A stretch of DNA of 64,000 bases from Climacium dendroides (Eukaryota > Streptophyta > Bryopsida > Hypnales > Climaciaceae). Below are positions 31,481-63,622 of the stretch, piece by piece; within the stretch, counting starts at the first letter, position 1, and each line of letters begins with the position of its first letter. Below the pieces are notes generated by a model. That model had not been told where the DNA came from. It did no database searches and saw only the letters and a list, made by a program, of their open reading frames with translations. Made by a program: the position numbers and the translations under genes. Location of the stretch: assembly GCA_950106755.1 (NCBI GenBank), contig OX467088.1:12570001-12634000 (forward strand). The letters are read 5' to 3'.

Positions 31481-32581
31481 CCATATTACATACAAATATT
31501 GCCAAATTCAAATCTCCAAGTTCAAATTGAGAACCACTTAAACACATTTCTCCTAATACATTAACCCCTAAAGGATGGAGACATTACTCATACAATGTAG
31601 ATACTAAAGCAACTCCTAAGTACCAAAGCCATTTGCATGTAGAAAAAATTGATTATTTGACATAGAGAATTTTTTCTGTGAGACTACCTAAGAGTGCACC
31701 TTTAATTAAAGATTTTCATAAAAATTTTAGCACCAAGATAGGACAAATAGTAAAGTCTTGTATACTAGGACTATTGAGGAGTACAAAAGCCATTGTAGGT
31801 CATTTCTTGATCTTAACATCCTAAAACGGGTTAAGGCAGAGCTCTGCAGTGCATATCAAGAAGCAATTTGGTTAAGCTCGGTACTATAGATCAGCTAGTT
31901 AAGACATCTGTAACATGACTAACATCTCAAAGAACTGGGATGTCATCAGCAGACAAAAGAGAGAGACCTAACTCCGTGAATTGAACCCATTCAACCATGT
32001 TCAGCAACATTACAAATTTCAACCACTACTGACTTGCTTTGCAACCTTGCCAAAGTATAGAATTTACTTCTAAACACTCGCGTCCTCGTCCAGGCAGGCC
32101 CTTGCCACTTTCCAATCATCGTATACGTTATAGGATTGGTGACATCGACAGAAACAGAGCAATTCAATCCCGGAAAGGATGGCTTGTAGCACTCTGAGAT
32201 CTCATCTTCTCCTATTTCATATACCCTGCTCTAAATTAGAGCGCCGGCCTACGCAATCAACAATAATTTCAGTGGCTTCAACACAGAGGAACCTGCTGCG
32301 TTACCAAAACCCTAGAAAAAGGCGATTCAATTCAATTCAATTCCTACAATTCCACCTCGGTTTCGAAGTCGAATCGTTAAATGGAGAAAGGCGAGAAAAG
32401 TTGCAAACCAGTTCATGACGATCAAACCCTCCGTTATCATATATCACCATCACCACCCGCTGCTTCCCGATAACGTCCATAACGGACCCGTGCATTTGAG
32501 CACAAGTCGAATTCGATTCATGGATTTGCCAGAGTGAATTACCAATCCCGATAAAACTCAATGCATATGCCCAGTGAAACC

Positions 32582-32923
32582 TTAAATCAGAAGGATGCCA
32601 TTCTCCCGAAGACTATCTACGAACGCCTTGATCTTCCCATGGTACCTCTCCCCCTTCCGCAGCTCATAAGTTACCGCAGGAATGTCCTTCACCTTCAACC
32701 TGGCAGCCAAGATCCCTGCAATGTGTGCGGAAGCCGCCACGTCGCCCGTCGCAGAAAGCTGCTCCCGCAAATCCTTCTCCTGCGACGTCGCCGCAACCAC
32801 CGTGTGGCTGGTAGGCTTGTGAACCACCATGGATCGCACATACTTGTTGGAGAAATGCAACTTCAACTCGTAAGGCTTCAAGTACTTGGTCATCCTCGAC
32901 ACGGATCCCATTTTCGCCGCCAT
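32582..32923 (-). CDS. mitochondrial-type ribosomal protein uL18 (L18p/L5e family), copy 2
   Basis: An intact 113-residue frame from the ATG at 32923, differing from copy 1 at three residues (ATSQEKDL for ATSEEKDL, QLSATGD for QLPATGD, KGERYHG for KGEKYHG). Synonymous changes outnumber these in the DNA I compared by eye, and there is no stop or shift, so both copies look functional. The telo-box is conserved at 33007-33015. Expected role as for copy 1: a 5S rRNA-binding protein of the mitochondrial large subunit. Confidence 0.88.
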   Translation of the reverse strand: MAAKMGSVSRMTKYLKPYELKLHFSNKYVRSMVVHKPTSHTVVAATSQEKDLREQLSATGDVAASAHIAGILAARLKVKDIPAVTYELRKGERYHGKIKAFVDSLRENGILLI

Positions 32924-33006
32924 GAGGTCCACCTCCCTCCCTCCCTCGCTCGCTGATGCTCAAAAAGTAATCAAACCTGCAAACACTGCCTCGCTCGTCC
33001 ACGACT

Positions 33007-33015
33007 AAACCCTAA
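33007..33015 (-). promoter_or_regulatory. telo-box upstream of uL18 copy 2
   Basis: AAACCCTAA on the plus strand, 84 bp before the copy-2 ATG, the same distance as in copy 1 despite changes in the sequence around it. Confidence 0.65.
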
Positions 33016-33190
33016 TTGCCTGAACAGGTAACCAACGCTTCTGCAAATTGACCACTGTACCAGTGCATTTGCCGGACAGGCAGGTTCTCCAAATTGCGTG
33101 AGTGAACACGACCACAATGTAGACGTGGCAGGGAATAGTCCGACGTGGCAGTCTTAACCCCTTTTTAATATGACCTGTCCTAATGATGTG

Positions 33191-34460
33191 GATATCACAT
33201 ATCTCCGAGGGTGCATTATTAAGGAAGTTCATGGGGGCTTACAGCATCACTTGGTCACAAACTGCCACATGCCAAGCATACATAGCATTAGTCCACATTT
33301 TCAACTCATTCTGCCAAATCCCAATCACTAGGACTATTAGTACACATTCCCATCATGACACCAAGCATGTTTTTTAGTAACATGGGGCGGAACTTCCACC
33401 TTAATGTGCAAGGACCCATGGTGGCACTACTCACCATGGTCCTAATTGTTTTTGAGTGTCATCCTACTCCATACTAGCCTTTTGCATTTGCTACTCATCC
33501 ATTAAAAGTAACTGGCACTCACAACTCGGGACACATCCAAGGAGACCTAGCAAAGAGTGGGACTCCACCCAACCGATGCCCCGGGACACACACAAATGTC
33601 CCATGATGCCTTGAAGTGGTGGTGAAGTCACTACCAACCACTATGAGTTACCAAGACTCACCAAGACTTCAAAAAAAAAAAGGAGGGAGACCAACCCCTT
33701 CTATAGTACTCTCTGTGGTATTCGGCAGACCCCCCGGTCCTAAGTTGAAGGAGAACCTTAAACACACTTGAGTTGTGGAAGACCACCCAATTACAACTCA
33801 AATCGCCAAGTTACGTCACCGTTTGGACTCCCGAACTTCCAATCGGCGTAACTTTGTGCTCAGAGCTCCAAATTCAACATGTGAGCCCATTTTAGACATC
33901 TACGCAACAAATAGATGCCTATGAACTTCTCATTCGTCTCATTTAAACAAGTCCTCGCAAAGTTATGACCCTCCAAAGATTCGGGTTCACCGAAGGAGGC
34001 ATCATACCTTCACTAGGGCTCTTCTTTTGGCCATAACTTTTGACTCCTATTTTAGAACCTTATAATGCTTATCATTTTAAGTTTTTTGTGTTCATAACTT
34101 TCCTATGATATGCTATATGCCATACTTTCTTATGGGATTCATTGAGAACCCCTCACACCTAGCCCTCAAGTGTCTTGGCACCATCGGGACCTAGTCAACT
34201 TTGAACGGTTATAACTTTTAGTTCACAACTCCAAATTGCGCATTTTTTGCACTATTAGAAGTGTATTGTCAAGAGCTTTTCAAGAATGTATGACACTCTA
34301 CCATCCACTTCAAAATCAGAGCGTCATTGTGCCATGTTTGATCGGAAGTCTCTCAAATCTCTTTCTTAGTCTATTGTAAGGCTTGGGAAGTCACCCCGAA
34401 GGTCCCCCCTTGCGCACTAAGGTTCATTGGACATCCCAAGAAGATAAGGGCGTGACAACA
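33191..34460. other. intergenic, possible old repeat, no gene seen
   Basis: The phrase 'ataacttttgactcc'/'ataacttttagttcac' and similar recur in a region with few open frames, which suggests decayed repetitive DNA. I found no terminal repeats or protein match. Confidence 0.4.
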
Positions 34461-35189: not shown

Positions 35190-37130
35190 GTTTGTAAAAA
35201 ATGCTATATTTGTGTATAATTCTACAAGTTTTTTTTATAAATGCCTAAGATATCAGTAAAGTAGACTTCATTATCTTTCCAACGCACTTTGTGGTTTGTG
35301 ATTTGAATCATTTTTGAGCAAATGGTGGCAGTTTGAAATTGGAGATATGTACTCTGTTTCTACATAACGACTGCTGTGAACGTAAACTTGTTGGTGGGTA
35401 CTGTACAGTACAGGATTCACTACCAAGTGACTCAAATTTGGAGCCTGCTTATGGGAAATACAACATGTTGTGTTGCACAAGCACAGAAGGGGTTCACTTT
35501 GTTTTTTCACAAACAGGCTCCATCGACAAGTTAACTTGCATACTCTCAATGAGGATGTTATGAATTAGAATGATCAAATTCTGAGAAAAGCAAATCTTGA
35601 CTGAATGCTCAGCTTTCAAATGAAAAGTGGAAAGAGTACAGTATGATTGTGGATTACAACAGAGCCGTTGTTTCAAAAATTCATTACACATAGAAGTGTT
35701 GGAGCTGGCTACTCCTAAAGACAATAAGATACGAGGTGCATAAATTGCCCACCTAAGAGCTGAAACTGAATTTTAGGGAAGTGAAGCTTTTTGAAATATT
35801 TATCAGTAAATTTTCCTTGGAAGACAAGAGGAATTGGCATCTAACCGTAATCGTTTCATATTTTTTGGAGCTTTGTGGAATTAGTTATCAAATTTTGAAG
35901 TTGAAATGGCATAGGGCTCTAAAATTGTCCAAATCCTAAAATGTACACTTTTTGTATATTGCTGAAGCCCATGAATAAGCAACATGTACAAATAATGTAC
36001 ACTTGAAGATGTGAGTGATTTTAGACCCTGTCCACTTTTAGAACCTCCTACCTTAGCTTAGTATGTATGTATTGCCATTGCTTTTCAGTTGAGTAGTGGT
36101 GCTAAAACTTTTTGGGCGTGGATGATCCTATGAATTGCATCTCCTCTTCTCTGGTTAGTGAATATAACCTGACTTTGAATCACTGATTGTAGAGAAGATC
36201 AATCAGAGCCTTGTTTCTATTTCATGTTCACAATATGATTCAAATGGATGTACTGGAATGCCAGTACTTATGCCAGCCAACCATCTGATGATCTCCATTT
36301 CAACAAAGCCATTGAACAATGACAAATTGGTATACACTCTAAGGTAGAAGCATTAGTAGTGGATCACTTGAGTGAATTTCGAGCAGATGGTGAGGAGTAT
36401 GGGGTGGTGGAAATCTTTTCCATGTAGGAAGATAGGAAATATAGGGAGTGCAAATTTTTTTTAAATTTTATTCATGAATTTGAAGTTATAGTGAATTTTG
36501 GGAGCCAACAAGTATTGTTGACCCATATTCAATGTTTAGAGTATTTTAATTTCAATCGTTGAAGAACTGCTTTCCTGTTTACTTCTTCCTATTTTCTCGC
36601 TCACTGCTTTTAGACATGTGTCACAACCATATTAGCCCCAACCTTGAAAAGGACAAAAAAGCACATATTTCAAGCTTGAGTTAAAGTCTCACATTGAAAA
36701 TAGTGCACACTACAGGTTGGGTATTGGGTGTGATTGAGAACTGATGCTTCTACTCATTACTAACCAGTAGAGTGGGAGAAATGTGGCAGAGGTTGACACT
36801 CATTTCAGATTTTTTGGGGAGGGAATGGTTGAATAAAGCTTTTCAGTTGGATGACATACACATGGCATTCTCATTACCAAATTGTTTGACACATGTGTCT
36901 CATTTTTATGCCCAACTTAACATGAAAAAGTCTCTCTGATTGAGTAATTTTGCGTGACTCTATAGTTTGGACATGGGTCCACGCCCTCTGGCACCTTCTA
37001 TACTTCCTAGTAATTTCATATCAAAGTGAAAAATTATCAAAATTTTGGCAATCTTCCTCATTTCTATGTCTGCAATTATGAAAATTTTCTTCTTGCCTCA
37101 CAGCACTCCAGATCATGTCTGCAATACCTT
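35190..37130. other. AT-rich intergenic containing a diverged repeat
   Basis: About 36340-36620 is similar to about 43160-43480: both contain 'catgtaggaagataggaaat' and 'tgaattttgggagccaa', then 'caatgtttagagt'. This may be an old retroelement fragment, but no domain could be read. The rest shows nothing supportable. Confidence 0.4.
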
Positions 37131-38435: not shown

Positions 38436-38738
38436 TCACAACTTTTCAAGTTGTACTTCAATCAATTGTTCACATCCCTTGAAGTTCAATGTAGTAAGTG
38501 ATGTCAATGATTCAAGGTCCAAATCCTGAATCTTCAATTGCTCGCAATCATTCAAATAGAGCTCTTCTAGAGATGTCAACTTGCTCAATCCGTGAGGCAA
38601 GTTCTCCAATGCACCACATCCACCAAAACCTAGATTCTTTAAGGCCTTGAGATTTTCAAAGGATGCATGTCCCACCTTCAAACTACCATTTTTAGTACAA
38701 GTACCAAATTTTAGGAAAAAAAACATTTTTGAACACAT
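38436..38738 (-). pseudogene. orphan LRR fragment related to the kinase-NLR repeat array
   Basis: About 75 residues (VGHASFENLKALKNLGFGGC through SLTTLNFKGCEQL) match one 96-residue unit of the receptor gene 5 kb away, in the same orientation, with more divergence than units inside the array. Both sides run into unrelated sequence and stops. I read it as a remnant of a related receptor gene or of an earlier, longer array. Confidence 0.8.
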
Positions 38739-38739
38739 A

Positions 38740-40380
38740 AAACCGTAGGATCTTGTAGTAAGTTGATTTCAAAAGATGTGGAAGAAATTTCATAAATTTC
38801 CACCTCGTAGAATGTAAGATATTATCATTTGAATTGACAAAAAATTCTTTTTTTGACCTACCAAAAACTCAAGTAGCTGCACTTTACAAGGCCAAATCAT
38901 TATAAGAAAATGTCTAAAATGTTTGTAATTCTTTGGATTCATTCTTCAAAGCAAGTTGTCTATGTTCTTGAAAAAATTTAGATCATTTGGAATTGTACAA
39001 CATATGGGGAAAAAATAGTCAATAGAAAGAAATAAAGAATGATTTAAAATACTAAATTGTTAACAATTCATTCATGGAATTGAAAAATGCCAATCCCAAT
39101 GGTTGTAATGTTGTAATAAACAATCTACACCTAACATGTTTATTTTTTTCCAAAAATATTGAAATTGAGTTAAATAAAGAACTTCAAAGTTTATCTTAGA
39201 GTAGAGATTCCATAACTACCAACAAACTACCCACAACTAAAACTTCTCATAACTTTCATCTTATCAATTAAAATGAAATGACTCAAAGCTTTCTACCTAT
39301 ATATAAATCTAGAAAATCAATTTCAAATTTTTATTTTTTGTAAAAGTACTTCTTAAAGAAATTTTTTTGCTGTCCAAGTTGCCTGCCAAGCAATGAAAAC
39401 TACATATCATACAATAACTTTTTAACCATGTAAAATAAAATCCATTCATAGTGAGCTACCCAAAAATCACTTTGTTTCCAAAAAAACACAATTTGATCCT
39501 TTTAAGGGTTAATTTTATTATTATTGTGCCGATTGTAAGTCCAAGTGGCAATGCTCTCCGATGTTCATTTTATTTTGTTGGTGCTGCTTGGATGGTCCAG
39601 TAAAGTACAAGTAAGCTAAGGCTTAGAGAGCACTCATCTGAAGAAAAAAAGACCTCTATACAAAAATGGGTGGATCTAAAGTTTTTTTACATTTTTGTGG
39701 AAGAAAGAGAAATGAGGAATACAACAATGGAAATTTTATGTTTAATTTTCTGACTTGAAATGAATAAGATATGATTTTTCAAAGTCAAAAGTACATAGGT
39801 CCCTATTAATGCTCATAGGTGCAATTGTAATCAATCAAAACATGCCATTGAATGGAGTCAATGAGTTTAAGAGCGATCCTAACCATGCCCTTAAATGGAA
39901 CCAATGAGTCTAAGAATGATCCACTATATGTTACCCTTCAATTCACTCCCAATTGTAAATCAAAATTTATTGCAACCGCTAAACACCCTAGGGTTTCCTC
40001 ACATAAGGTAGAAACATCCAATTCTGTCCCTATACCTAATCTTTGTTCCATAGTGTGCCCTTAAAGTGTCCTTAGAGTTTCATTAATGTGTCTTACACAT
40101 GTTTAACTTTGATTTGTTAACGCACTTGAAGGACACATATTGAACTTTGATTTGCTGATAGCTGAATTTTGCACAATTCAGTTTTGAGTGCACCTATGGG
40201 ACAATTCCAGTGGTCTACAGACCCGCCACTTTGAAAAATCATAAAAATTACATATTAAAGCAAAAATATCTAATTTTTTTAATATTCATGATTTTCTCTT
40301 GCTAATACTACAAAATATTAGTTTTAAGAAAATAGGCCTCCGACTATGCTAAATTCCTTATTTTGATGGTTTCGGGTGCC
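38740..40380. other. AT-rich intergenic, no gene seen
   Basis: Only short open frames. Near 39840-39905 two phrases ('ccattgaatggagtcaatga' and 'ccttaaatggaaccaatgag') form a small diverged duplication. Confidence 0.45.
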
Positions 40381-40384
40381 TTCA

Positions 40385-40900
40385 CCTTAGTTTCAAATCC
40401 AATTCAAAGTGTCGTAACTTTTGCATATGATGTCTAAATTCAATAAAACTTGTTGGAAAATTTGCATTCTCTCTTCTAGTTTGTGTGGTAAAATTTCCAA
40501 ATCAATACAAGATGTAATGATTATTAGGAAGTCAATCAAAGCTTACAGGTTCAATTTGAGTCCACAAAACTACATTTGATGGTTGCAACTTTGGGGGCTT
40601 GTATCTCCTTCATCCAATGTTAGTTTTCAATAAAATTTGTTGGGTTATGTTTTCCTTGAAGCCTAGTTATTGTGGTAAGATTTTCATGTCAATCCAAGTT
40701 GTTTTGAATGTTTGGGAGGAATTCAAAGTTTAAAATCCCAACATTTTTGGATTACAATGAACTTTGGTGACCTGTTTGTTCTTCATACAATGTCCATTTC
40801 TAATTTGAAAAAATTTGAAAAAGTTGCACATACTAGTCTAGTTTGCGTAGTTAAAATTTCATTTCAATCCAAAAAGTTATGAGTGACTACGAAGCATTTT
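40385..40900. repeat. diverged tandem repeat, unit about 180-195 bp, three copies
   Basis: Copies near 40400, 40590 and 40760 share the order 'caactttg', 'catccaatgt/catacaatgt', 'aattt', 'agtctagttt', 'gtggtaa/gtagttaa', 'tttcaatccaa'. Strongly diverged and non-coding. Confidence 0.5.
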
Positions 40901-43160
40901 AGTAGGAGGAGGTTTAGCCTTAGATGTGTTTTTTGCAATTTTTTTTGCAATTTTTTGACATTTTAAAGTCACTCTGTAGACCTCACCAAATTCAAGTCTT
41001 TATTATGAGTAAAATCACACATGATGATGAATCATATCACCTTCTCAATAGTCTAAAATCACACACATGGGTTGGCAATTTCTCACCACATGAAGTCATT
41101 TCCATTTTTACATCTCATGTGCATTGTTTTGGGCACTTCTATAGGGGCGGTTCTTAACCCCTAAATGCCCGAGGCACTAAAATCTAGTGTTTGCAAAACT
41201 TTGAAGTTAAATAAAACCTAACGAAGTTGCTATTTTTAATAGATTATATTTTTGGAAAGTTCTTATTGAAGTCTAATTTTAGCACCAAAAACCTGATCTT
41301 GAAAATAAATGACAATGATTCTTCTATTCACGATTTTTTGCAAGGGTACCCATTGCAATCTTGACTTCATGTAGTGTTGAGAGCTCTTGGAAACGAGCTT
41401 CAAATACACTAGATCTTGGAGAAAAAATCACATTCAAAATTTATTTAAAAAAATTATAGAGTAGATTTTAAAAAGACATAAATTGATTGGGGTTATACAT
41501 GTTAGGCCCTTGAACCTCATATGTTTTTGGTCAACAACTTTTTGAATTTGACATGCAAAAAGAGAATTGAAAGATTATCATAGTTTTAACACCCTCACGA
41601 TCAAACATTATAATCTTTCACTCCGTAAGTGATATTGTTGTGTTTTTTTTTCCTATGAGATCTCTAACATGTCTAGTTTGAATTTGTATGGTTACAAATT
41701 CAAAAAAATTGATACAACTTATCGAAATGTTGGCATTTTGTTCAATTCAAAGCAAATTTCAAGAGGCTTGAAACAGGCCTTGGTCATTTATGGGTTAATG
41801 CCCGAACTGTTTTCCTATAGTGGTAGATCTGAGTGCAAGTTGCAAAGCTTTTTTTTCTTAGGGCATGCCCACAACAACTCAAGAATTGGGCTTGGATGGA
41901 CTCGGCCCCATAGCAGGCATGATGAAGGCCAAAAATGTATATTGGAACAAAAAAACTTGGAACATATGAAATGTTGAAAAACATTTGCATTTGTAGTATA
42001 GGTTCTTTTATTAGACTTCAAATGCAATTAAAAACTAAATTATCAACTTGCTTCGAGTTTTAAAGTATAAAGAGGAGCTTTTTCTATTCACAGAGGGTGG
42101 TAGGAGGTAGAACAATCCATGTGGGACATGTTACTTAAAACATACTTTTTTGGTTTTCTTAGGTGAACACAACAGAAAGTGATAGTTCTAAGTGGTTTTT
42201 GACAGAAAACACCAGCTTTCTGCCAGAAAATGAGCATGAGAAATGCATGCAGGCAAAGTGGTCAATGCTTGAAAATTGATAAAAACTCCACCAGGGACTG
42301 GTTCCATTGGTTCCTTGCACTGTTTCCTCTATCAAACGAATTTGTCCATGTGTTTAAAAATTTTAAAGATTTTAAAGAAAGAAGTGGGCTTATGGAATTG
42401 GTATTTCAGAGATTGCTTGTGTTAAGCTTAGCAACAATCCCACCCTCAGTCTTGTTTTCTTGGGACAATGCAACCTCATAAAACAGATCGGCTTCATTGC
42501 CATTGTTCCTTTGTTTTGATGAGGCACACTATTAACCCTTAAACAATGGACTGGTGACTCTGGAATTCGTTGGTCAAAAAATCCAATAGCACTCGTTGGA
42601 AGTCAAAGTAATGTAGAAGATTTCCCCTTTTCACACAAAATTTCAAGGATGAATAGTTGCACTTATGTCCTACACTAAAAGATTCTTTGTCATCCATCGG
42701 AACACCAAACATTTGCCTCGACGTTTAAGGGTTAAGTTAGGAGGAGAGCACACATTCTTAGTGAAGTCTGATCTAGAATGATTTTCTCAACATGGACAAT
42801 TTGTGTACATGAGTTCCCCTCATTTCCACTACACGGAACTTGTAGAAAGTCCCCCAATGTAAAGGAGACGAGGGGGCCACAATGGGCAAACTAGGGAGGA
42901 TTGACCCGTGTCTTGCCCCATGCTTTATCCTTGCATTAAACATTGAAATTTTTTATTTGCCACATATGATAGAATTCGCAAATTTTGAATTCACATTTGC
43001 AATCAATGGATCACTTGGGAGGTGTGATGAAATACCAAATTATAAGTAGGACAAAATAGGAGACAATTTTCACATTTCTCCTTCAATGTGGCAATATATG
43101 TCAATCTTCCTTGGTCTAGTGGGCATCATTATTCTTCTCCAGTGCCAAGGATACATCTAA
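40901..43160. other. AT-rich intergenic, no gene seen
   Basis: Short open frames at about 41669-42027 and 42230-42481 have no recognisable domain or splice context. Confidence 0.4.
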
Positions 43161-43599
43161 GGCTAAGGCACTAGTAGCCAATCATTTAAGCAATTTTAGA
43201 ATAGATCATATGTAGTTTGAGGTGTTGGACATTTCTCCCATGTAGGAAGATAGGAAATATGCGGATAGCAAAAGTTTTAGAATTTTATTTTCAAAATTGA
43301 AAGTATTGTGAATTTTGGGAGCCAAAAAGTGCACTTTACTAGTAACCAATGTTTAGAGTCTTCTAATTTTGATCATTCAAAAATGATTTTCTTGTGCACT
43401 ACTTCCTACTTTTTTCCTTCCTAACACAAGAAATGTGTAATAATCTTAGTAGGCCCAACCTTGTAAAAGACCGCAAAAAAAAAAACATTCCAAACTTTGA
43501 TTGGAAGTATGTTCAAGCCTTGCTTAGAAATAGTGCATTGCTAACAGTTTGAAGCCACTCTAAACATGTCATGTTTGCTATGGCTAGTGGAATTCTTTC

Positions 43600-46500
43600 C
43601 TAATGTTCACATCTTTCAAAATCCAATGTAGTAAGTGATGTCAATGATTCAAGGTCCGAATCTTCAATCTTCAATTGCTTGCAATCATTCAAATAGAGCT
43701 TTTCTAGAGATGCCAACTTTCCCAATCCATAGGGCAAGTACTCCAAGGCCTCACATCCACTAAAAGATAGAATCTTTAAGGCCTTGAGATTATCAAAGGA
43801 TGCATGTCCCACCTTCAACTTCTTGCAACCTTCAAAGCCAAGCCACTCTAAACATGTCATGTTTGCTACGGCTGGTGGAATTCTATCCAATTGTTCACAT
43901 CCCTTGAAATTCAATGTAGTAAGTGATGTCAATGATTCAAGGTCCGAATTTTCAATCTTCAATTGCTTGCAATAATTCAAATAGAGCTTTTCGAGAGATG
44001 CCAACTTCCCCAATCCGTAGGGCAAGTTCTCCAATGCCTCACATCCACTAAAAGTTAGAATCTTTAAGGCCTTGAGATTATCAAAGGATGCATGTCCCAC
44101 CTTCAACTTCTTGCAACCTTTAAAGCCAAGCCACACTAAACATGTCATGTTTGCTATGGATGGTGGAATTCTATCCAATTGTTCACATCCCTTGAAATTC
44201 AATGTAGTAAGTGATGTCAATGATTCAAGGTCCGAATCTTCAATCTTCAATTGCTTGCAATCATTCAAATAGAGCATTTCTAGAGATGCCAACTTCCCCA
44301 ATCCGTAGGACAGGCTCTCCAATGCCTCACATCCACTAAAAGTTAGAATCTTTAAGGCCTTCAGATTATCAAAGGATGCATGTCCCACCTTCAACTTCTT
44401 GCAACCTTCAAAGCCAAGCCACTCTAAACATGTCATGTTTGCTACGGCTGGTGGAATTCTATCCAATTGTTCACATCCCTTGAAATTCAATGTAGTAAGT
44501 GATGTTAATGATTCAAGGTCCGAATTTTCAATCTTCAATTGCTTGCAATCATTCAAATAGAGCTTTTCGAGAGATGCCAACTTCTCCAATCCGTAGGGCA
44601 AGTTCTTCAATGCCTCACATCTACTAAAAGTTAGAATCTTTAAGGCCTTGAGATTATCAAAGGATGCATGTCCCACCTTCAATTTCTTGCAACCTTTAAA
44701 GCCAAGCCACACTAAACATGTTATGTTTGCTGTGGATGGTGGAATTCTTTCCAATTGTTCACATCCCTTGAAATTCAATGTAGTAAGTGATGTCAATGAT
44801 TCAAGGTCCGAATCTTCAATCTTCAATTGCTTGCAATCATTCAAATAGAGCTTTTCGAGAGATGCCAACTTCCCCAATCCATAGGGCAAGTTCTCCAATG
44901 CCTCACATCTACTAAAAGTTAGAATCTTTAAGGCCTTGAGATTTTCAAAGGATGCATGTCCCACCTTCAACTTCTTGCAACCTTTAAAGCCAAGCCACAC
45001 TAAACATGTCATGTTTGCTACGGATGGTGGAATTCTTTCCAATTGTTCACATCTTTCAAAATCCAATGTAGTAAGTGATGTCAATGATTCAAGGTCCGAA
45101 TTTTCAATCTTCAATTGCTTGCAATCATTCAAATTGAGCATTTCTAGAAATGCCAACTTCCCCAATCCGTAGGGCAAGTTCTCCAATGCCTCACATCCAC
45201 TAAAAGTTAGAATCTTTAAGGCCTTGAGATTATCAAAGGATGCATGTCCCACCTTCAACTTCTTGCAACCTTTAAAGCCAAGCCACACTAAACATGTCAT
45301 GTTTGCTATGGATGGTGGAATTCTATCCAATTGTTCACATCCCTTGAAATTCAATGTAGTAAGTGATGTCAATGATTCAAGGTCCGAATCTTCAATCTTC
45401 AATTGCTTGCAATTATTCAAATTGAACTTCTCTAGAGATGCCAACTTCCCCAATCCGTAGGGCAAGTTCTCCAATGCCTCACATCTACTAAAAGTTAGAA
45501 TCTTTAAGGCCTTGAGATTATCAAAGGATGCATGTCCCACCTTCAATTTCTTGCAACCGTCAAAGTTAAGCCACACTAAACATGTCATGTTTGCTATGGC
45601 TGGTGGAATTCTATCCAATTGTTCACATCCTTCAAAATTCAATGTAGTAAGTGATGTCAATGATTCAAGGTCCGAATCTTCAATCTTCAATTGCTTGCAA
45701 TCATTCAAATAGAGCTTTTCGAGAGATGCCAACTTCCCCAATCCATAGGGCAAGTTCTCCAATGCCTCACATCTACTAAAAGTTAGAATCTTTAAGGCCT
45801 TGAGATTATCAAAGGATGCATGTCCCACCTTCAATTTCTTGCAACCTTTAAAGCCAAGCCACACTAAACATGTTATGTTTGCTGTGGATGGTGGAATTCT
45901 TTCCAATTGTTCACATCCCTTGAAATTCAATGTAGTAAGTGATGTCAATGATTCAAGGTCCGAATCTTCAATCTTCAATTGCTTGCAATCATTCAAATAG
46001 AGCTTTTCGAGAGATGCCAACTTCCCCAATCCATAGGGCAAGTTCTCCAATGCCTCACATCTACTAAAAGTTAGAATCTTTAAGGCCTTGAGATTTTCAA
46101 AGGATGCATGTCCCACCTTCAACTTCTTGCAACCTTTAAAGCCAAGCCACACTAAACATGTCATGTTTGCTACGGATGGTGGAATTCTTTCCAATTGTTC
46201 ACATCTTTCAAAATCCAATGTAGTAAGTGATGTCAATGATTCAAGGTCCGAATTTTCAATCTTCAATTGCTTGCAATCATTCAAATTGAGCATTTCTAGA
46301 AATGCCAACTTCCCCAATCCGTAGGGCAAGTTCTCCAATGCCTCACATCCACTAAAAGTTAGAATCTTTAAGGCCTTGAGATTATCAAAGGATGCATGTC
46401 CCACCTTCAACTTCTTGCAACCTTTAAAGCCAAGCCACACTAAACATGTCATGTTTGCTATGGATGGTGGAATTCTATCCAATTGTTCACATCCCTTGAA

Positions 46501-49500
46501 ATTCAATGTAGTAAGTGATGTCAATGATTCAAGGTCCGAATCTTCAATCTTCAATTGCTTGCAATTATTCAAATTGAACTTCTCTAGAGATGCCAACTTC
46601 CCCAATCCGTAGGGCAAGTTCTCCAATGCCTCACATCTACTAAAAGTTAGAATCTTTAAGGCCTTGAGATTATCAAAGGATGCATGTCCCACCTTCAATT
46701 TCTTGCAACCGTCAAAGTTAAGCCACACTAAACATGTCATGTTTGCTATGGCTGGTGGAATTCTATCCAATTGTTCACATCCTTCAAAATTCAATGTAGT
46801 AAGTGATGTCAATGATTCAAGGTCCGAATCTTCAATCTTCAATTGCTTGCAATCATTCAAATAGAGCTTTTCGAGAGATGCCAACTTCCCCAATCCATAG
46901 GGCAAGTTCTCCAATGCCTCACATCTACTAAAAGTTAGAATCTTTAAGGCCTTGAGATTATCAAAGGATGCATGTCCCACCTTCAATTTCTTGCAACCTT
47001 TAAAGCCAAGCCACACTAAACATGTTATGTTTGCTGTGGATGGTGGAATTCTTTCCAATTGTTCACATCCCTTGAAATTCAATGTAGTAAGTGATGTCAA
47101 TGATTCAAGGTCCGAATTTTCAATCTTCAATTGCTTGCAATCATTCAAATAGAGCTTTTCGAGAGATGCCAACTTCCCCAATCCATAGGGCAAGTTCTCC
47201 AATGCCTCACATCTACTAAAAGTTAGAATCCTTAAGGTCTTCAGATTATCAAAGGATGCATGTCCCACCTTCAACTTCTTGCAACCGTCAAAGTTAAGCC
47301 ACACTAAACATGTCATGTTTGCTATGGCTGGTGGAATTCTATCCAATTGTTCACATCCTTCAAAATTCAATGTAGTAAGTGATGTCAATGATTCAAGGTC
47401 CGAATCTTCAATCTTCAATTGCTTGCAATCATTCAAATAGAGCATTTCTAGAGATGCCAACTTCCCCAATCCGTAGGGCAAGTTCTCCAATGCCTCACAT
47501 CCACTAAAAGTTAGAATCTTTAAGGCCTTGAGATTATCAAAGGATGCATGTCCCACCTTCAATTTCTTGCAACCGTCAAAGTTAAGCCACACTAAACATG
47601 TCATGTTTGCTATGGCTAGTGGAATTCTTTCCAATTGTTCACATCCTTCAAAATTCAATGTAGTAAGTGATGTCAATGATTCAAGGTCCGAATCTTCAAT
47701 CTTCAATTGCTTGCAATTATTCAAATTGAACTTCTCTAAAGATGCCAACTTCCCCAATCCGTAGGGCAAGTTCTCCAATGCCTCACATCTACTAAAAGTT
47801 AGAATCTTTAAGGCCTTGAGATTATCAAAGGATGCATGTCCCACCTTCAATTTCTTGCAACCGTCAAAGTTAAGCCACACTAAACATGTCATGTTTGCTA
47901 TGGCTGGTGGAATTCTATCCAATTGTTCACATCCTTCAAAATTCAATGTAGTAAGTGATGTCAATGATTCAAGGTCCGAATCTTCAATCTTCAATTGCTT
48001 GCAATCATTCAAATAGAGCATTTCTAGAGATGCCAACTTCCCCAATCCGTAGGGCAAGTTCTCCAATGCCTCACATCCACTAAAAGTTAGAATCTTTAAG
48101 GCCTTGAGATTATCAAAGGATGCATGTCCCACCTTCAATTTCTTGCAACCGTCAAAGTTAAGCCACACTAAACATGTCATGTTTGCTATGGCTAGTGGAA
48201 TTCTTTCCAATTGTTCACATCCTTCAAAATTCAATGTAGTAAGTGATATCAATGATTCAAGGTCCGAATCTTCAATCTTCAATTGCTTGCAATTATTCAA
48301 ATTGAACTTCTCTAGAGATGCCAACTTCCCCAATCCGTAGGGCAAGTTCTCCAATGCCTCACATCTACTAAAAGTTAGAATCCTTAAGGCCTTGAGATTA
48401 TCAAAGGATGCATGTCCCACCTTCAACTTCTTGCAACCTTTAAAGACAAGCCACACTAAACATGTCATGTTTGCTATGGATGGTGGAATTCTATCCAATT
48501 GTTCACATCCTTCAAAATTCAATGTAGTAAGTGATGTCAATGATTCAAGGTCCGAATCTTCAATCTTCAATTGCTTGCAATTATTCAAATTGAACTTCTC
48601 TAGAGATGCCAACTTCCCCAATCCGTAGGGCAAGTTCTCCAATGCCTCACATCCACTAAAAGATAGAATCTTTAAGGCCTTGAGATTATCAAAGGATGCA
48701 TGTCCCACCTTCAACTTCTTGCAACCTTTAAAGCCAAGCCACACTAAACATGTCATGTTTGCTATGGATGGTGGAATTCTTTCCAATTGTTTACATCCTT
48801 CAAAATCCAATGTAGTAAGTGATGTCAATGATTCAAGGTCCGAATCTTCAATCTTCAATTGCTTGCAATTATTCAAATTGAACTTCTCTAGAGATGCCAA
48901 CTTCCCCAATCCGTAGGGCAAGTTCTCCAATGCCTCACATCCACTAAAAGATAGAATCTTTAAGGCCTTCAGATTATCAAAGGATGCATGTCCCACCTTC
49001 AACTTCTTGCAACCTTTAAAGCCAAGCCACACTAAACATGTCATGTTTGCTATGGATGGTGGAATTCTTTCCAATTGTTCACATCCTTCAAAATCCAATG
49101 TAGTAAGTGATGTCAATGATTCAAGGTCCGAATCTTCAATCTTCAATTGCTTGCAATAATTCAAATAGAGCTTCTCTAGAGATGCCAACTTCCCCAATCC
49201 ATAGGACAAGTTCTCCAATGCCTCACATCCACTAAAAGTTAGAATGTTTAAGGCCTTGAGATTATCAAAGGATGCATGTCCCACCTTCAACTTCTTGCAA
49301 CCTTTAAAGCCAAGCCACTCTAAATATGTCATGTTTGCTATGGCTGGTGGAATTCTTTCCAATTGTTCACATCCTTCAAAATTCAATGTAGTAAGTGATG
49401 TCAATGATTTAAGGTCCGAATCTTCAATCTTCAATTGCTTGCAATTATTCAAATTGAACTTCTCTAGAGATGCCAACTTCCCCAATCCATAGGACAAGTT

Positions 49501-49860
49501 CTCCAATGCCTCACATCCACTAAAAGTTAGAATCTTTAAGGCCTTCAGATTATCAAAGGATGCATGTCCCACCTTCAACTTCTTGCAACCTTCAAAGCCA
49601 AGCCACTCTAAACATGTCATGTTTGCTACGGCTAGTGGAATTCTATCCAATTGTTCACATCCCTTGAAATTCAATGTGGTAAGTGATGTCAATGATTCAA
49701 GGTCCGAATTTTCAATCTTCAATTGCTTGCAATCATTCAAATAGAGCTTCTCTAGAGATGCCAACTTGCCCAATCCATGGGGCAAGTTTTCCAATGTCTT
49801 ACATCGGTTGAAGTTTAGAGTCTTTAAGGCCTTGAGATTTTCAAATGTCACATGGATTGA
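43600..49860 (-). repeat. tandem array of 21 units of 288 bp coding four LRRs each
   Basis: The same position in each unit recurs exactly every 288 bp from 43784 to 49544, which makes 21 units without a frame shift, plus a diverged unit at the 5' (high-coordinate) end. Each unit encodes four 24-residue LRRs: HASFDNLKALKILTFSGC, then PYGLGKLASLEKLYLNDC, DSDLESLTSLTTLNFEGC and PPAIANMTCLVWLGFKGC, each ending in a short L-rich turn. Units differ at only a few positions, in mixed combinations. Larger blocks also repeat: about 44605-45964 and 45757-47116 look identical at 1152-bp (four-unit) offset, and about 47240-47816 and 47816-48392 match at 576-bp offset with a few changes. Confidence 0.95.
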
Positions 49861-52800
49861 TGTCAATTTTATGCATCTTTGGATGTATATTGATGTCAAG
49901 GATGTAATGTTTTGAAATCCGGGTGATATATTTGTAAGATTATCACATTTGTTTAAGTGTAATGTCTTCAAGGGCATGTGTTCAATTGTAGTATTTGGAA
50001 AGGTCTTCATAAAAAGGAAGTTTTGTAATTCTAATACTGTAAGTTGGCGAAATTCTTGTCGCTGCAATAGGGTTGTGAATTGGCTAATGTTGTTCAAAGA
50101 GATATACCCATCATCAATATAATTTTTTTTGTATATAATCCGAAGGAATTTAAGTTGATGAGTTCCTTGAATCAATTTGGCAACATTACGCAAGTCATTT
50201 GGTGCTTCAATATTTAGAAGCAACAAGTTGGGGAGGTCAACCTTCTCCATTGGGGTCAAATCTTTCTCTTTATTCACTCTTGTAATACACATGCCTCGAG
50301 CATTTTGAAACTCCTGAATCACATAGTTTCATTATTAAATGCTTACAAGTTGATGAGCATTAACAAAGTTGATCATCCTACAAACCAAATTTATCTCAAT
50401 AAACATGCACTTTGAGATTTTGAATTGAACCAATATTTATATTGCACCATAAGCAAAACACTTAATATATTAATTGAATTACATACCTCTTTTTTTGATG
50501 ATTCTAATGACCTGAATGTTTGGTTCCACTTTCTTCTACCTCCAAATCTTGTTCTTGAGATTCTACGCCCCATATCACGTATTGAATCATGCATACTTAT
50601 AAATCCATTAGCATCTATTTTGATAAGTGATTTGTCTTTCAAAGCCGCAATTATGGTTTTGGTGTTGGCATCCAAATAGTCAACTAGGGTATCTTCTCGA
50701 ATATCGTCAAACCATACATCTTTACAAAAGAAGCATGATATGTCCAAAAACACTTCTTGCTCCTCATCTCTTAGCATATCAAAACTAATCTCCAACCTTC
50801 TCCCCACATCCTCAAGGGCATCATATTCTCCTCTCTTCAATCTTTGTAAAGCTCGTTCCCACACACAGAGGCGCTTTTGTCCATTTAAACAAGAGCCCAT
50901 AACTTCTAAGCTTAATGGATGGCCACCACAAGCTTCAACAATTTTCTTCATGAGTTGATTCATATGTGGTATCAATGGACGCTCATTCTTGAAGGCATGT
51001 TTGGAGAATATTTCTATAGATTGGTCATAATTGAGCATTTGAACTTCAAATTTGCTATCTTCTTTGATCATGCCTTTCAAGATCTTCCAATCACGGCTAG
51101 TAACAATCACTTTGCTACCTTCTATACTAAACATTTTTGCTTCCAAAAACATATTCAATTGATGTTCTTCAATGACATCATCTAGGATGAAGAGCACTTT
51201 CTTTTGTTGGAGCATCAATGTCAATATAAGTTTACCTTGAACAAGATCTTTTGCTTCTTGTTTTTGTCCCAATTCCTTCAAGATCCGATTCATTTCTATC
51301 AAATAATCACTTTTAAGATCACACATAATTGTAGTCCACTTAGATGAATCATTGAATGGCATTGCTTTATTTAGGCGATCCTTCAAAGCCTTCACTAGTG
51401 TTGTTTTTCCAATTCCACTCACTCCAACAACACCAACCATAGATTTATTTCGGAGAAAATTTTCTAAAGTCTTAACTTTCAAATCAAGACCACAACATTT
51501 GAAAAGTATTGAAGAATCAATAATACCCTGTGCACATTAAACTCATCACAATTAGCAAATTGAAAAATTACCTCTATCAACAAAGTTTAATTATCTCATT
51601 CAAAGAAATTGAAAATTGAATATACAATCATCCCTCTATTATTTGTTGAACCATCAAATATATGAAAAGACTTTCAACTCAATTCAATTTGAATGCAAGA
51701 GATAAAATTAATATTAGAGCTTGATTTTTCTTAGTTGAGTGTGGACTACCCTTCACTTTGAAAATATTGAAGTGGTATGCATGGCTTTTAATATGGTGTT
51801 AAGTTCAAAACACTTTTCAAATTTATACATACCTTGATACATTCATCATTCTTTTTTGGAATATACAATCTCCATACATAATCAATGATAAATGCCCATA
51901 AACAATACATAGTCAATCTCCATATGTACAACCACCATTGTCCAATGGTTATGATAGAAAATGAAAATAGATTGATATGTGAAATTGGTCCATCTTCTCT
52001 CTTCAATGTCTTGCTAGTACACCGAGTCTTGAAGTCTTTCTTCTTTATCTCCATCAAACTTGTGTATATCTTTGCAAATGAAGGTCTTTGATTTGGATTC
52101 ATAGACAAACAATCTTCAATTAATGACCATAATTCTTGAGAAAATGAAGTGCCCATTAAGGCCAATTTTTGCCTTTTAGCAATTTTAGAAGGACTAGATA
52201 AAAAATCCTTACATTCTTTTTGGAGTAATATATCACAACAAATTAATCCAAAACTAAACACATCGGTTTTTAAAGGATCAAACTCTGTATCTGCCTTTAA
52301 TGCTTCGGGAGCAATATATACACGAGTCCCACAAATACCACTTGGCATAACAAAAGTATTGTCCTTCACTTCATTCTTGGAAATACCAAAATCAATCAAT
52401 TTGGCAAACACATAACCATCTTCTTTTAACTCTGGACATTGCATGGTATTCACCACAACATTGGCTGGCTTCAAGTCACGATGTGCAACTTTCATATCAT
52501 GAAGGTATAACACTCCACTAGCAATTTGTAGCATTATATCCAACTTGGCATGGAATGTAATCCTCTTGTTTGAATCCTCAAATAGCATTTGACGAAGACT
52601 CTTTTCACCTTTCTCCATTCCAAATTGAAGGTGATTATTTCCAAAAGAATCCTTAAAATAGCCACAATAGAATAACTTGATGATGTTTGGATGATTCAAT
52701 TGTGCCATAATCCGCACTTCCTTCTCCAATTTAGTGATATCGGGTTTATCATAACCATCCAAGTCTATTTCCTTTGTGATATTCTCAATGCCCAACCACT

Positions 52801-53509
52801 TTGTCAAAAATACACTTCCAGTATTTGGAATAATTTTAGGAATTTTTCCAAAATCTGGTAATGGAACATTGGAAAGGAATTGAATTAGATCACTTTCTCC
52901 ACGTTCTACTTTCAAGATGCATTCCCTCCATTGTAGCACATACTTTGCTAACTCAAAATCATGTGATCCAGGTTGCATATTATGCAATTTGTTTTCCAAT
53001 ATTTTGCGTAACTTGTCTTGATCTTCTTCAACTTCTACTAGATCACATGGAAGAAAACTACTAATAAATGATTGAAAATCCACAATATTCTTCGTCCCTT
53101 TCAAACATGAATCAATGTTTGATGCAATGTCAAATAATCCCTCCAAGGAGGAAACCATTTCCAAAAGCAATTCTCTAAATGCTTCTTTGTTTTGCATTTG
53201 AAGTAGAGGCGCTAGAGACGAAGTTTGAGAACAACTTTCCACCAACATTAGAGCTTTTGAAGTGACTTTACAAGCATCTTTCAATAAAGGTTGAAAGGCT
53301 CTTGTATCCAACTTAAATATTTCTTGAAACTTTTGTACAAAATTCCTCAAATGATGTACCAAATTCTTGCATTGATTAGCATTGAACACTTGATTTGAAT
53401 GAACATTTTCTTCACAATTTTCCAAAGCCTTCATAGTCTCCTTTTTTTTGGATATATCCATATTGATGTTGTACATCACAAGTTTATCCAAAGAGTAGGT
53501 CAAATATCT
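43600..53509 (-). CDS. protein kinase-NB-ARC-LRR immune receptor with expanded LRR array (5' exon not found)
   Basis: Predicted intracellular immune receptor of the kinase-NLR type described from mosses. Exons, all phase 0 with GT/AG: 53509-51833, 51527-50487 and 50313-43600, together about 3143 residues. Exon 1 has a helical N-terminal part of about 225 residues, then a kinase with a weak glycine loop, a possible ATP Lys (ITKEI), HRDLKPANV, DFGIS and APEAL. After the kinase comes a Trp/Phe/Ile-rich hydrophobic segment (about 51840-51980). Exon 2 is an NB-ARC: GVSGIGKTT (P-loop), VLFILDDV (kinase 2), GSKVIVTSRD (RNBS-B), CGGHPLSLEV (GLPL), FLDISCFF and SMHDSIRDMG (MHD). Exon 3 is an LRR domain of about 2237 residues, mostly 21 near-identical 96-residue units. 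Exon 1 begins at an acceptor (ttgcag), so a further 5' exon is expected; a within-exon Met at residue 12 (MYNINMDI) is the alternative start. The frame ends at a TAG inside the last unit. Domains needed for signalling look intact. Confidence 0.88.
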
Positions 53510-53519
53510 CTGCAAATGA

Positions 53520-56125
53520 CAAATTAATCATTGTTAGAATATCCACACCTCAATAGCTACTTTAAGACTACAATTATAATTAAACAAATTAACAAATATT
53601 TGTGATTGATCCACGTAGTTCAAGTAAGTTGGTGAAAGAAGTTGAACACCAAATAATAAGATTATTAATCAATCAATAACTCACATATTTATAATGAAAG
53701 CAATGAAGATACAAAAGATGTTCATCAAGTCAAAAAATAAGTCAATAAGAATATAGCAAGTATCTATGATACATTGTCAATTATTTGCATGTTAAGTTAT
53801 TGACCATGTTTACAACTACTAGTCATGGAAACCAATAGGGGTTGCCTTTCAAAAACACTTTTCATCAAATGACAAAAGATTCAATAGTCATTCTAAGCTA
53901 TGAAATTCAACATTTTGTACCAAATAATTAATTAAAATCCTTTTGGCAACCACCTCAAAAAATCCTTTGGCAACCACTTCGAGAATTAATAAAAACTTCA
54001 AAATTTAATATTATTTTATTAATTTGTATTGGACACCTTGATTGCAACAAATTGTTTTTAGAAATGAGCAACTTTATTAGCCTCCAATGGATCTTGCAAG
54101 CTTGTTTTTCCTAATGCACAACATCTCTTCTATATTATGTTGTATAACCTATAACCTACACTACAAATCTAAAACATGATTAATAGTATCTCTTCTATAT
54201 TATGTTGTATAACCTATAACCTACACTACAAATCTAAAACATGATTAATAGTATCTCTTCTATATTATGTTGTATAACCTATAACCTACACTACAAATCT
54301 AAAATATGATTAATAGTATTCTAGGTAGCATATTTAACCTAATCAAAGCCAATTTTTTTTTATTCATGCCCATTTCTAAATGAACCTTAGATTTCAATGC
54401 AAATGCCAATGAATTTACAAAATGTTGTGGAACATTAAACTAATTGAGAATCTAAAATATATATATCACAAACTAAAGTAAACTGCGGCAAATAGCTTCC
54501 AAACTGTACTTACAAAATCTTCTATTTACTCTAGCATGATCTTCTTAATAATATTTCCCAAAAAAACTAGATAATTTTATAACTAATTGCGATTTGATCT
54601 CCATGACCTTACACCAAGCTTCCAAAATTTAATCAAGATAACCAACAATCACTTGCAAACCCCATAATGCCCATTCCATTAAAGTGGCAGGATTCCAATG
54701 TACAAAATTGTCACAAATATGAGCATGAAAATATGAATAGGTATGGATTCATGTTTCTAAAGGTTCATATGAAAAGTACCAAAGTATTGGAATAACAACA
54801 ATTTAACAAAGTTGATATTCAAAGCATCTAACTTTGTAATACATTCAAAAGCAAAGAGTATAAATTCTTGTTGAATCTCCAAAAGCAAGTACAAAGCTTG
54901 AAATACAATGAAACCAAACATCACCCAAAATAGAAAAGTGAAATAAAACATAAGATCAAATGCATTCCAATACTTGGTATTTTTTACACTAAACATTTTG
55001 GTCAAAGTAGTGGTTGCCACCAATTAAACAAAATGGAGATTTAACCCTTTATAATCCACACATCCAATGAATGGGTGTGCCTTGGTCAACCTTGATTGTA
55101 ACTTTCAAAATTATTATTTCCAAACTTTAAAATAAATCAAGAAAATGAAGCTTAACAAGTCTTGTTTCTACTCCATTTGAAAAATATCAAGAATGTAAAA
55201 ATGTAAAAAAGTTATTGAAGTTGAAAGCTCCATGTGTTAAAAAACCAAATACCACATTATGGTGTGTTTTTCATTCTTATTTATATATTTTTAAATAAAT
55301 TTGAAATTTATATTATAAAGTTATGTTTTTCATTCTATCCTTCATTTATAATAAGAATTACAGATTATTCTAATAAATTTTCAAATTGATATAATTTTAT
55401 TTCCTCTTTTAGCTTTAAAAAAATCACAATAATTTGATTTCTCCATCAAAATTACTTGGGAAAACAACATAAATAGAAAATGTAGTTTTTCACTAGTAAA
55501 AAATATTAAACTTTTATACATCATATATATAAATAAATAAATTCAGTTTGATAGTTGAATTTAATATTTAAAAGATAAAATAATCAATTAAATTTTTTTC
55601 TCACTAATATCCATTACTACTTGTACCTCTTGAATGAGTTTCAAGTAATTTGGATTGATTTTCTATTTTTACTTATTTATATTCAATTTCTGCAACAAAA
55701 ATGACAATAATTACAATTTTGTACAAAACAAATTGGGATTTCTCACAAAAATATACAGTTCATAATTTCAAGTAAAAAAATACTGGGTTGTTGTTTAAAC
55801 ACAATTTGAAAGGCTAAATTTAGCTTAGATATGATGTTTGACCATTTCACAATAGATCAAGTCCTTTAGGGATTAATGCCAATCACAAGCCAATACAATA
55901 TATCATTATTTTTTGACTCATATAAGGGTTTCAACAAAGTAAAGACTTAGGGTTTAGAAAGAAGAAGAATTGTCATTTTTCAATTTCACAATCACCCTAA
56001 TGTACCTAATGAAGCAATGACTTAAATTCCTCGAATATTAGTGACTTGATATTATGGAAGAACAATACTAGGTGAACATGACCAAGTAGACTTCACCACA
56101 GCTTGAGATCAATACCAAGGGCTGA
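53520..56125. other. AT-rich region upstream of the kinase-NLR gene
   Basis: This should contain the missing first exon and promoter of the minus-strand receptor gene, but I could not identify them. An open frame on the minus strand at 54757-55023 encodes a hydrophobic, Phe-rich peptide with no recognised family; its relation to the receptor is unknown. Confidence 0.4.
54124..54318. repeat. 65-bp tandem repeat, three nearly identical copies
   Basis: The unit begins 'tctcttctatattatgttgt' at 54124, 54189 and 54254. Copies differ by a single base (aaaacatg against aaaatatg in the third). It lies in the upstream region of the kinase-NLR gene. Confidence 0.95.
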
Positions 56126-62057: not shown

Positions 62058-63622
62058 TCAAGTTTTTGTGTGGGCATCAGATTTTGTTTTGGGTTTCCTC
62101 TTCCCTCTTTGTCGGATGAAATAATCGTCCCCTTCTCTAGTGTATTTGCCGACAAAGTCCGGATATTCCAGCACGAGGTGCCTGTCCTGCCACGGCGCTA
62201 ACACGCGAACGCGCAGTCCCAAATATGTCTGTCTCAAGGGTATCGTGAGGTGTCCAAAAAGTGCGTTCTGAGACACGTATTGCGACACGCTAAGGCCGGA
62301 TGCAAGCAGGCCTTCGAGATACGGGCACATAGTCCCCAAGAGAGTGGAATCGTGTTCACTGCCCATATACGACAAGGGAAACACGGCGTTGTGCACGGGG
62401 TTCAGGATGCTGCTCTCCGGAGAGGAATCGATGAGGAGGGTATTAGACGAATTGGCCCGGAAGTTCTTGGTGATGAACGTCTCGGTGTCCCACACAACCT
62501 TGTACAACACCTTCAGCCGCAGTTGCCCTTCCGGATGGTCGGAGAACTGCACGTAGGTATTCACGTCGATAGTAGGATCACATGAAATATGGGCGGGGTG
62601 CCTCGGGTAGGGTGGGTCGGGAAGGGATGGCAAGGGCGGGCACCTGCACTCCGACCACGACCGCCTCTCGATAATGGAGGTGCAGTTCTCCAACGCGAGG
62701 ACCCACATGTAAGTGCGGTCGAAGTCGCGAAAGAGGAAATCGACCATGGGTTTGGCAACGACGGCGGGCAGCCGAGTCCAGACGGAGACGTAAAATCGAT
62801 TCGTCAAGCCCGTGAGGAAGCGGTGCAAGTCGGGACGGCAATGCATCATGTATTTGCCGAAGACGTGGCACCGTCGAGGGTGGTAATCCTCCTTCGAGGG
62901 CTTTGCCTTCGTGGTCGAGGGAGTTGGCTAGACGCGTCCAACGTCCTCAATTTGGGCGAGGACCCCTTCCAACTCCAGAAGGACGAAATAACTATACACA
63001 GGCAAAGCAATAGGGGGCGCCGTCGCGGACACCGGCAGTGGAGCCTGCGTATGCGAAATCCTGTGCTCAAAGTCCTCTTCTTTATGAAGAAATGGAGTCC
63101 ACAAAAATGAACATGCGACTCCTCAAGCTTTGCCTTGCTAAGAGAGAGACGACAACCCCCTCTCTATGAAGATCCTAGTTCTATCCTAAATGAGATGTGC
63201 ACTTCCTACAAACTATTTAGGAAAGTGCTGGACAGAGACAACGAGCATAGGGTTGCAAGGACATGGAGTCTCACCTTTCTCTCATCCGTGGGAGTGGTGG
63301 CCGCGAGAGGAGGTGGTGCCGGTGGCGCTAGGACAGCAAGAGTGTCGACATCTGTGAGGGAGGAAGGCACCATCTTCATAGGTACCAGAGTGTCGACCTC
63401 ATCGACAGCGGGAGCATGGATGTCTACGAGGGAAGGAGGCACTAAGTTTTGAGGCACCGGAGTGGCGACTTCCAAGTCGACGGGAGGGACGACCTCGACA
63501 ACAGCAACAACAGGAGAGTCGACTTCCATGGAGATGGCAGGTAGGACTTCATCATTCCTCGAGGCCGAAACGGGAAGTGGGGACAATGGAGACTCGTTGT
63601 CACGTGCGAGAGCATCGACAAC
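62058..63622 (-). pseudogene. HAD/FCP1-type phosphatase-like gene, apparently decayed
   Basis: Minus strand. An exon-like block at 63622-63275 (acceptor tttag, donor AAG/gtgaga, 116 codons) encodes a Pro/Val/Asp-rich low-complexity segment (start VVDALARDNESPL). Downstream, one frame reads YFVLLELEGVLAQIEDVGRV (about 62990-62931), then a TAG stop at 62930-62928. It continues in the same frame through CHVFGKYMMHCRPDLHRFL, a VSVWTRLP segment, NTLLIDSSPESSILNP, NAVFPLSY and a basic end at 62058. The order and spacing fit FCP1/NIF-type HAD phosphatases of plants, in which motif I is DLDG and motif IV is DDSP. Here motif I is ELEG and motif IV is DSSP, so the catalytic Asp is lost, in addition to the stop. 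It may be a pseudogene, or a pseudophosphatase if the TAG is removed by splicing. The splice acceptor of the middle part was not resolved. Confidence 0.6.

Follow-up and report, generated by a model that had tools for sequence, protein, structure and literature searches.

Mosses possess a PNL (PK-NBS-LRR) class of immune receptors that combines a kinase, a nucleotide-binding site (NBS) and leucine-rich repeats (LRRs), with phase-0 introns at both domain borders; in the TNL class, by contrast, the first of these introns is in phase 2 (Xue et al. 2012, PMC3352924, in the portions accessible). Because a phase-0 NBS/LRR intron is common to HNL, PNL and TNL according to the same portions, the second intron is not diagnostic alone (PMC3352924). 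When a kinase N terminus of such a nucleotide-binding LRR receptor (NLR) from Physcomitrium patens was expressed in Nicotiana benthamiana, the response was modest yet variable, and all kinases tested except one Tsn1 mutant caused mild ion leakage (Chia et al. 2024, PMC11218826, in the available text). In our view this makes the kinase plausible as an output module. Here we describe a gene in a 64,000-nucleotide (nt) stretch of the moss Climacium dendroides (GenBank assembly GCA_950106755.1, contig OX467088.1, positions 12,570,001–12,634,000; hereafter the window) that resembles the moss Pkn-NLRs/PNLs of these papers in domain order and intron phases, and differs from them in a giant LRR array, which the accessible portions of both do not mention for the class in general (PMC11218826, PMC3352924). 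We put at roughly 70% the probability that this gene encodes an immune receptor of the moss PNL (kinase-NLR) type and that its LRR domain has grown from an ancestral unit of four LRRs, multiplied in frame by successive rounds of unequal crossing over. In-frame change of LRR copy number through unequal exchange is familiar from flax L/M, Arabidopsis RPP5 and tomato Cf-2, with far fewer units.

The LRR array and the gene that carries it

Between 53476 and 43600 of the window, the minus strand reads as a three-exon gene with two GT-AG introns, both in phase 0 by the splice sites read from the DNA (Table 1). Tandem Repeats Finder (TRF) assigned to the third exon an array of period 288 with 21.9 copies, 95% matches, 0% indels and a score of 10971 (43552–49845), corresponding within the exon to 21 full 96-residue units and 62 residues of unit 22. 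Each unit comprises four 24-residue LRRs of the form LxxLxxLxLxxC. The 21 full units, among which there are 17 distinct DNA and 16 distinct protein sequences, share a mean pairwise identity of 94.8% at the nucleotide level (range 89.2–100) and 89.7% at the amino acid level. A regular expression allowing steps of 19–60 residues counted approximately 89 LRRs in one chain, compared with a longest chain of 4 in 20 shuffles, and a 26-base unit probe had 22 occurrences in the window (0 expected), with 21 falling inside the array. An origin of the array by chance is excluded.

An earlier sequence-only reading of the window had proposed a moss kinase-NBS-LRR receptor with its three modules joined by phase-0 exons and 21 consecutive 96-residue units, without frame break, in a 6.7-kb LRR exon. 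All of this was borne out: domain matches together with two predicted GTATGT...CAG phase-0 introns connect the modules, the units contain no indel and no stop before unit 22, and both the homology to P. patens and the two intron phases place the gene in the class. Of its approximately 84 near-identical LRRs, the near-identity holds, but the total is closer to 89 and the differences among the 16 protein variants are non-random. The gene limits it gave, 43600 and 53509, are retained at the former; the latter is a candidate 3′ splice site, and the first in-frame ATG lies at 53476, in exon 1. Both P. patens homologues begin at roughly the same place, so an additional upstream coding exon is not required.

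Those homologues emerged from a search with residues 1–970, in which the 7993 candidates with most shared words were scored and 140 proteins passed, the best 120 being listed. P0001 (900 amino acids (aa); 40% identity over 89%, E = 9.2e-177) and P0002 (1360 aa; 36% over 98%, E = 6.8e-167), both from P. patens, were followed at a great distance by angiosperm NLRs, beginning with a Medicago protein named TIR-NBS-LRR (E = 1.4e-30). The two resemble the window gene in the conserved N-terminal region, kinase, NB-ARC and winged helix. In the window gene, Pfam matches place a kinase at the N terminus, NB-ARC in the middle and the LRR domain at the C terminus (E values in Table 1), and splice-site reading gives phase 0 at both borders. 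Taken with the P. patens best matches, these features support assignment to the moss PNL class. Membership of the TNL class was rejected: the first intron is in phase 0, not 2, and no TIR is among the Pfam families listed (25 of 27 for exon 2). The exon 2 translation carries GVSGIGKTT, LDD, TSR, GHPL and MHD, which we take, in part, to be the P-loop and the other customary NB-ARC motifs.

A 96-residue unit also occurs in one of the P. patens homologues. Pfam reports no LRR in P0001; P0002, by contrast, repeats with a period of 96 residues (identity at 150 of 224 positions) and holds two full units plus part of a third, as against 21 and part of a 22nd in the window gene. For the two full units and the 25-residue partial one, identity to the window consensus peaks in the matching register (43%, 45% and 48%) and is 24–36% in the other three. 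As this common register makes the unit look old and its number here new, the four-LRR, 96-residue unit probably predates the split from P. patens, the number of units being what is exceptional in C. dendroides. This suggests that a 96-residue LRR unit is common to the kinase-NLRs of different moss species and is prone to expansion.

In a sample of 240 proteins listed from two length-bounded searches (the best 120 of 140 and the best 120 of 307), on which we do not claim 'longest known', the next longest LRR chain was 48. It belongs to a Lithocarpus litseifolius TIR-NBS-LRR model (P0121, 1922 aa), an independent case of tandem near-identical LRR units (period 71 residues, 87% in the best 300-residue stretch), which differs from the window gene in its TIR class, its 71-residue unit, its approximately half as many LRRs and its status as an unverified gene model. 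No title or abstract opening found in the literature, with subscription papers mostly outside the scope, reports an NLR with so many LRRs. A further listed protein with NB-ARC and LRR matches (P0123, named Gb_01595) has a 48-residue period.

Growth, variation and possible function of the array

The unit identity matrix revealed graded similarity. Between units 6–7 and units 8–9 there are 3 and 1 base differences, and a stretch of 396 bp matches exactly at offset 576. Duplication was stepwise, the latest step leaving the perfect 1358-bp repeat (Table 1). Unit 1 is the most diverged full unit (mean identity 90.9%), as expected at the edge of an array homogenised by unequal crossing over. Because the 1358-bp repeat is perfect, the sequence supports a recent expansion, as the earlier reading had also suggested.

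Variation was then assigned to site classes using 17 of the 21 full units, with duplicate units 15–18 dropped. By the xxLxLxx rule, positions 5, 6, 8, 10 and 11 of each LRR were taken as solvent-exposed. Informative amino acid columns were concentrated there (11 of 20 exposed versus 8 of 76 other columns; Fisher P = 6e-5); when the mask was slid through 24 placements, the true register scored highest (11; next 7), and omitting unit 1 left the result unchanged. Sixteen distinct exposed-residue patterns occur among the 21 units, and the changes include K/D/E and G/N. Core LRR positions were constrained, with 4 nonsynonymous changes per 75 sites versus 7 synonymous per 21 (P = 0.001). At exposed positions, 20 nonsynonymous changes per 48.6 sites stood against 6 synonymous per 11.5; by these counts neither the exposed nor the remaining non-core positions are constrained, and neither lie above neutral. 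The ratio of nonsynonymous to synonymous rates over all unit pairs, 0.67, is a descriptive figure, the pairs being non-independent. The hydrophobic core has thus been kept throughout the expansion, with the presumed binding face free to vary. In wheat Pm3, variation sits in the LxxLxLxxN/C core motif, a matching location (review, PMC6032283, in its accessible part).

The combination of core constraint and exposed variation weakens two suggestions of the earlier reading, namely that the array was under little constraint and that it presented a uniform surface. Against the first stand the absence of indels, the absence of a stop before the last unit and the constrained core, although non-core, non-exposed positions are unconstrained. 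As to the second, which came with a proposed long regular superhelix, regularity is upheld by structure prediction and uniformity is undermined by the enrichment of variation at exposed positions. AlphaFold 2 (AF2), given ten units and an alignment with five shifted stretches from the array itself, returned a mean predicted local distance difference test score (pLDDT) of 87.4, a predicted template modelling score of 0.66 and 40 strands at 24-residue spacing, so that this ten-unit stretch is predicted to form a regular solenoid, in agreement with the regularity proposed in the earlier reading. LRR proteins made up the best 50 of 1029 Foldseek matches and the 50 entries listed by VIA-align. Full-length superposition on the listed structures was poor (for example, 22 Å over 746 residues for 6s6q), so no pitch or ligand is drawn from the fold matches.

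Guided by what is known of NLRs in general, we propose that the NB-ARC would keep the resting protein inactive and that the long curved LRR array would act as the sensor, in contact with either an effector or a target in the host. Once released, the protein could exchange nucleotide and oligomerise, bringing the N-terminal kinase modules together and leading to defence or cell death. Repeated copying within the gene has made this presumed sensor part several times as long as usual; its structural core was preserved, and the changes fell chiefly on residues that face outward. The array might serve as a site for trying new specificities, both through point changes at exposed residues and through copying and reshuffling of units. 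A bolder and tentative proposal is that the LRR exon generates diversity from within the gene, as a hypermutable minisatellite of in-frame 288-bp LRR cassettes whose number and order differ between individuals. If this were true, one kinase-NLR gene would make new recognition surfaces by internal recombination rather than by recombination between cluster members. Since the units are nearly the same, keep the frame and were partly duplicated very recently, variation in their number between individuals is directly testable, and the gene would be of higher interest if unit number proved polymorphic. The gene would also test, at a natural extreme, what sensor length an NLR can have and still be auto-inhibited and oligomerise.

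The putative output module is conserved in part. The VAIK lysine and the αC glutamate, HRD, DFG and APE residues are invariant in all three kinases compared (window gene, P0001 and P0002); kinase activity cannot be told from sequence. For the region ahead of the kinase, one of the three sequences gave a sub-threshold DUF7792 match in Pfam. A search with residues 1–230 found no match at E ≤ 0.01 among 789 candidates, but P0001 and P0002, which do align to this region, escaped it too, and so it provides no evidence of absence. An MLKL-like four-helix bundle in this region is neither supported nor rejected: there was no Pfam match of the HeLo/DUF1221 type, which we take to be the family name for such a bundle, and a profile search of the PDB gave two weak matches, neither of them MLKL. 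Exon 1 as a whole matched kinases in the PDB, aligned over the kinase part only (best 60 of 779 listed), among them 6lba and 6ka4, presumably plant MLKL structures, although the listing does not say so.

Between kinase and NB-ARC (51840–51990, minus strand) lies a tryptophan-rich hydrophobic linker (WWLYIWRLTMYCLWAFIIDYVW), weaker in P0001 and still weaker in P0002. A membrane anchor was considered here but not retained among the conserved features: the best 19-residue Kyte–Doolittle mean is 1.25 (0.99 and 0.57 in the P. patens proteins), below the usual cut-off of 1.6.

Competing accounts of the array and its 3′ end

Several results weigh against a functional receptor grown from an ancestral unit. 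The exons are joined by splice sites read in the DNA only; the canonical GxGxxG glycine loop is degenerate in all three kinases, the P. patens relatives included; and the AF2 model of exon 1, built from three sequences, was poor (pLDDT 38.6). Positions that are neither core nor exposed show no constraint (18 nonsynonymous changes per 104 sites versus 4 synonymous per 28), and positive selection was not detected in the 17 units, the nonsynonymous to synonymous ratio at exposed positions not differing from that at other sites (Fisher P = 0.56). As for the antiquity of the unit, the 96-residue block of P0002 ahead of its first full unit has no register preference (25–28% throughout), a shift by two LRRs ranks second to the common register, and only three of the four single LRRs find their own counterpart as best match. 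Finally, the stop codon falls within a unit, and 4.9 kb further downstream there is a degenerate unit, which raises the possibility of a damaged C-terminal end.

The 3′ end admits a second account, compatible with the receptor reading, which we regard as possible though not the favoured one: the original array was longer, and the stray three-quarter unit downstream of the gene (Table 1) was its last unit, now parted by a 4.9-kb insertion or lying beyond a long intron. Recognisable array DNA extends 48 nt past the stop, to 43552, and breaks off at unit position 237, where the stray copy resumes at 259 with 21 nt missing; moreover, the stray copy and unit 1 are the most diverged units, as expected at the two ends of an array. 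The similarity between the 3′ flank of the gene and the DNA beyond the stray unit would instead be expected from an old tandem duplication of this end, and the in-frame stop lies ahead of the break. In 38682–43552 a repeat search recognised no long terminal repeats, and no transposon-like frame of at least 55 residues was noticed, the frames not being compared with a library. The stray unit is thus a possible 3′ relic of a second copy, or a split-off end of the array.

Less probable is that the array expanded in a receptor already free of selection, with the stop in unit 22 and the stray unit as marks of decay. That stop arose where the consensus CAATTG reads CATTAG, two bases being changed. 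Besides this stop and the degenerate relic at 38.2–38.7 kb, decay would account for the lack of constraint at non-core, non-exposed positions and for the failure of third codon positions to dominate the variable sites (23, 14 and 19 at positions 1, 2 and 3). Pointing the other way, kinase and NB-ARC motifs are intact, the glycine loop excepted, core LRR positions are constrained and the array has not a single indel. The 59 changes inferred in 17 units introduced no stop before the last unit; as 54 of the 864 possible single changes would create a stop, a stop-free array has a chance of approximately 2%, a figure to be read with the caveat that the frame was chosen as open. Even without the stop, the frame would extend by 28 residues only.

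An unlikely alternative is that part of the array, chiefly the perfect repeat that covers units 15–18, is an assembly duplication and that the true gene is shorter. Such an error could most readily account for the exact identity of the two 1358-bp copies. Elsewhere in the array, however, the units differ from one another in distinct and graded ways (17 distinct DNA sequences among the 21), which assemblers do not invent, and removing the block would still leave 17 full units and approximately 70 LRRs. Short-read assembly, in addition, usually collapses repeat arrays rather than expanding them.

The least probable account, that of the earlier reading, sees in the uniform superhelix a regular, multivalent binding surface whose ligand would be repetitive or polymeric. 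The regular predicted solenoid, the high unit identity and the 5 of 21 exposed patterns that repeat another agree with it. Yet variation is enriched at exposed strand positions, contrary to what a surface kept uniform would show; recent duplication is enough to explain the similarity, and of the 5 repeated patterns 4 belong to the just-duplicated block 15–18.

Coordinates and neighbourhood

Table 1 Predicted features of the kinase-NLR gene and its 3′ side, in window positions.
Feature	Position	Strand	Details
Coding sequence	complement(join(43600..50313, 50487..51527, 51833..53476))	-	3132 aa, predicted 353 kDa
Exon 1: ~220-residue N-terminal region, protein kinase, hydrophobic linker	51833..53476	-	Pkinase E = 7.8e-37 (Pfam); collinear with P. 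patens P0001/P0002
Intron 1, phase 0, separates kinase and NB-ARC	51528..51832	-	AAG/GTATGT...GCACAG/GGT; 305 bp; 28% GC; 6 in-frame stops
Exon 2: NB-ARC and winged-helix domain	50487..51527	-	NB-ARC E = 2e-33; WHD_ROQ1 E = 8.9e-13 (Pfam)
Intron 2, phase 0, separates NB-ARC and LRR	50314..50486	-	GAG/GTATGT...GATTCAG/GAG; 173 bp; 27% GC; 4 in-frame stops
Exon 3 (LRR), 2237 codons and stop, 6.7 kb	43600..50313	-	Open frame 43600–50328; Pfam LRR families down to 5e-130
Exon 3, part before the array: 159 residues, diverged LRRs	49837..50313	-	
21 full 288-bp units (96 residues, 4 LRRs each)	43789..49836	-	Identity matrix; TRF
Partial unit 22, with stop codon at 43602–43600	43552..43788	-	
Perfect 1358-bp direct repeat, offset 1152 bp	44608..47117 (44608–45965 = 45760–47117)	-	Units 11–14 identical to 15–18
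3′ flank of gene	43151..43497	-	71% identical over 349 columns to 36332–36677, same orientation, beyond stray unit
Stray three-quarter unit, 219 nt	38463..38681	-	86.8–90.9% identical to array units; stops follow

Pfam matches to BCDHK_Adom3 and Chromo_shadow in the LRR exon were set aside as chance, repeat-driven hits. Elsewhere in the window, cellulose synthase gene pieces lie at 8806–11234 on the plus strand (PF03552, 1.1e-128 and 1.9e-37), and the minus strand holds a GDSL lipase-like frame (21003–22079) and an NIF (CTD-phosphatase-like) frame (62058–62927); 4 of the 8 neighbouring frames compared had no match. A 1.4-kb repeat, perhaps a transposable element, pairs 31831–33199 with 14950–16268 at 77% identity. 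Three 65-bp tandem copies with 99% identity (54123–54319) stand approximately 0.65 kb upstream of the kinase-NLR start codon.

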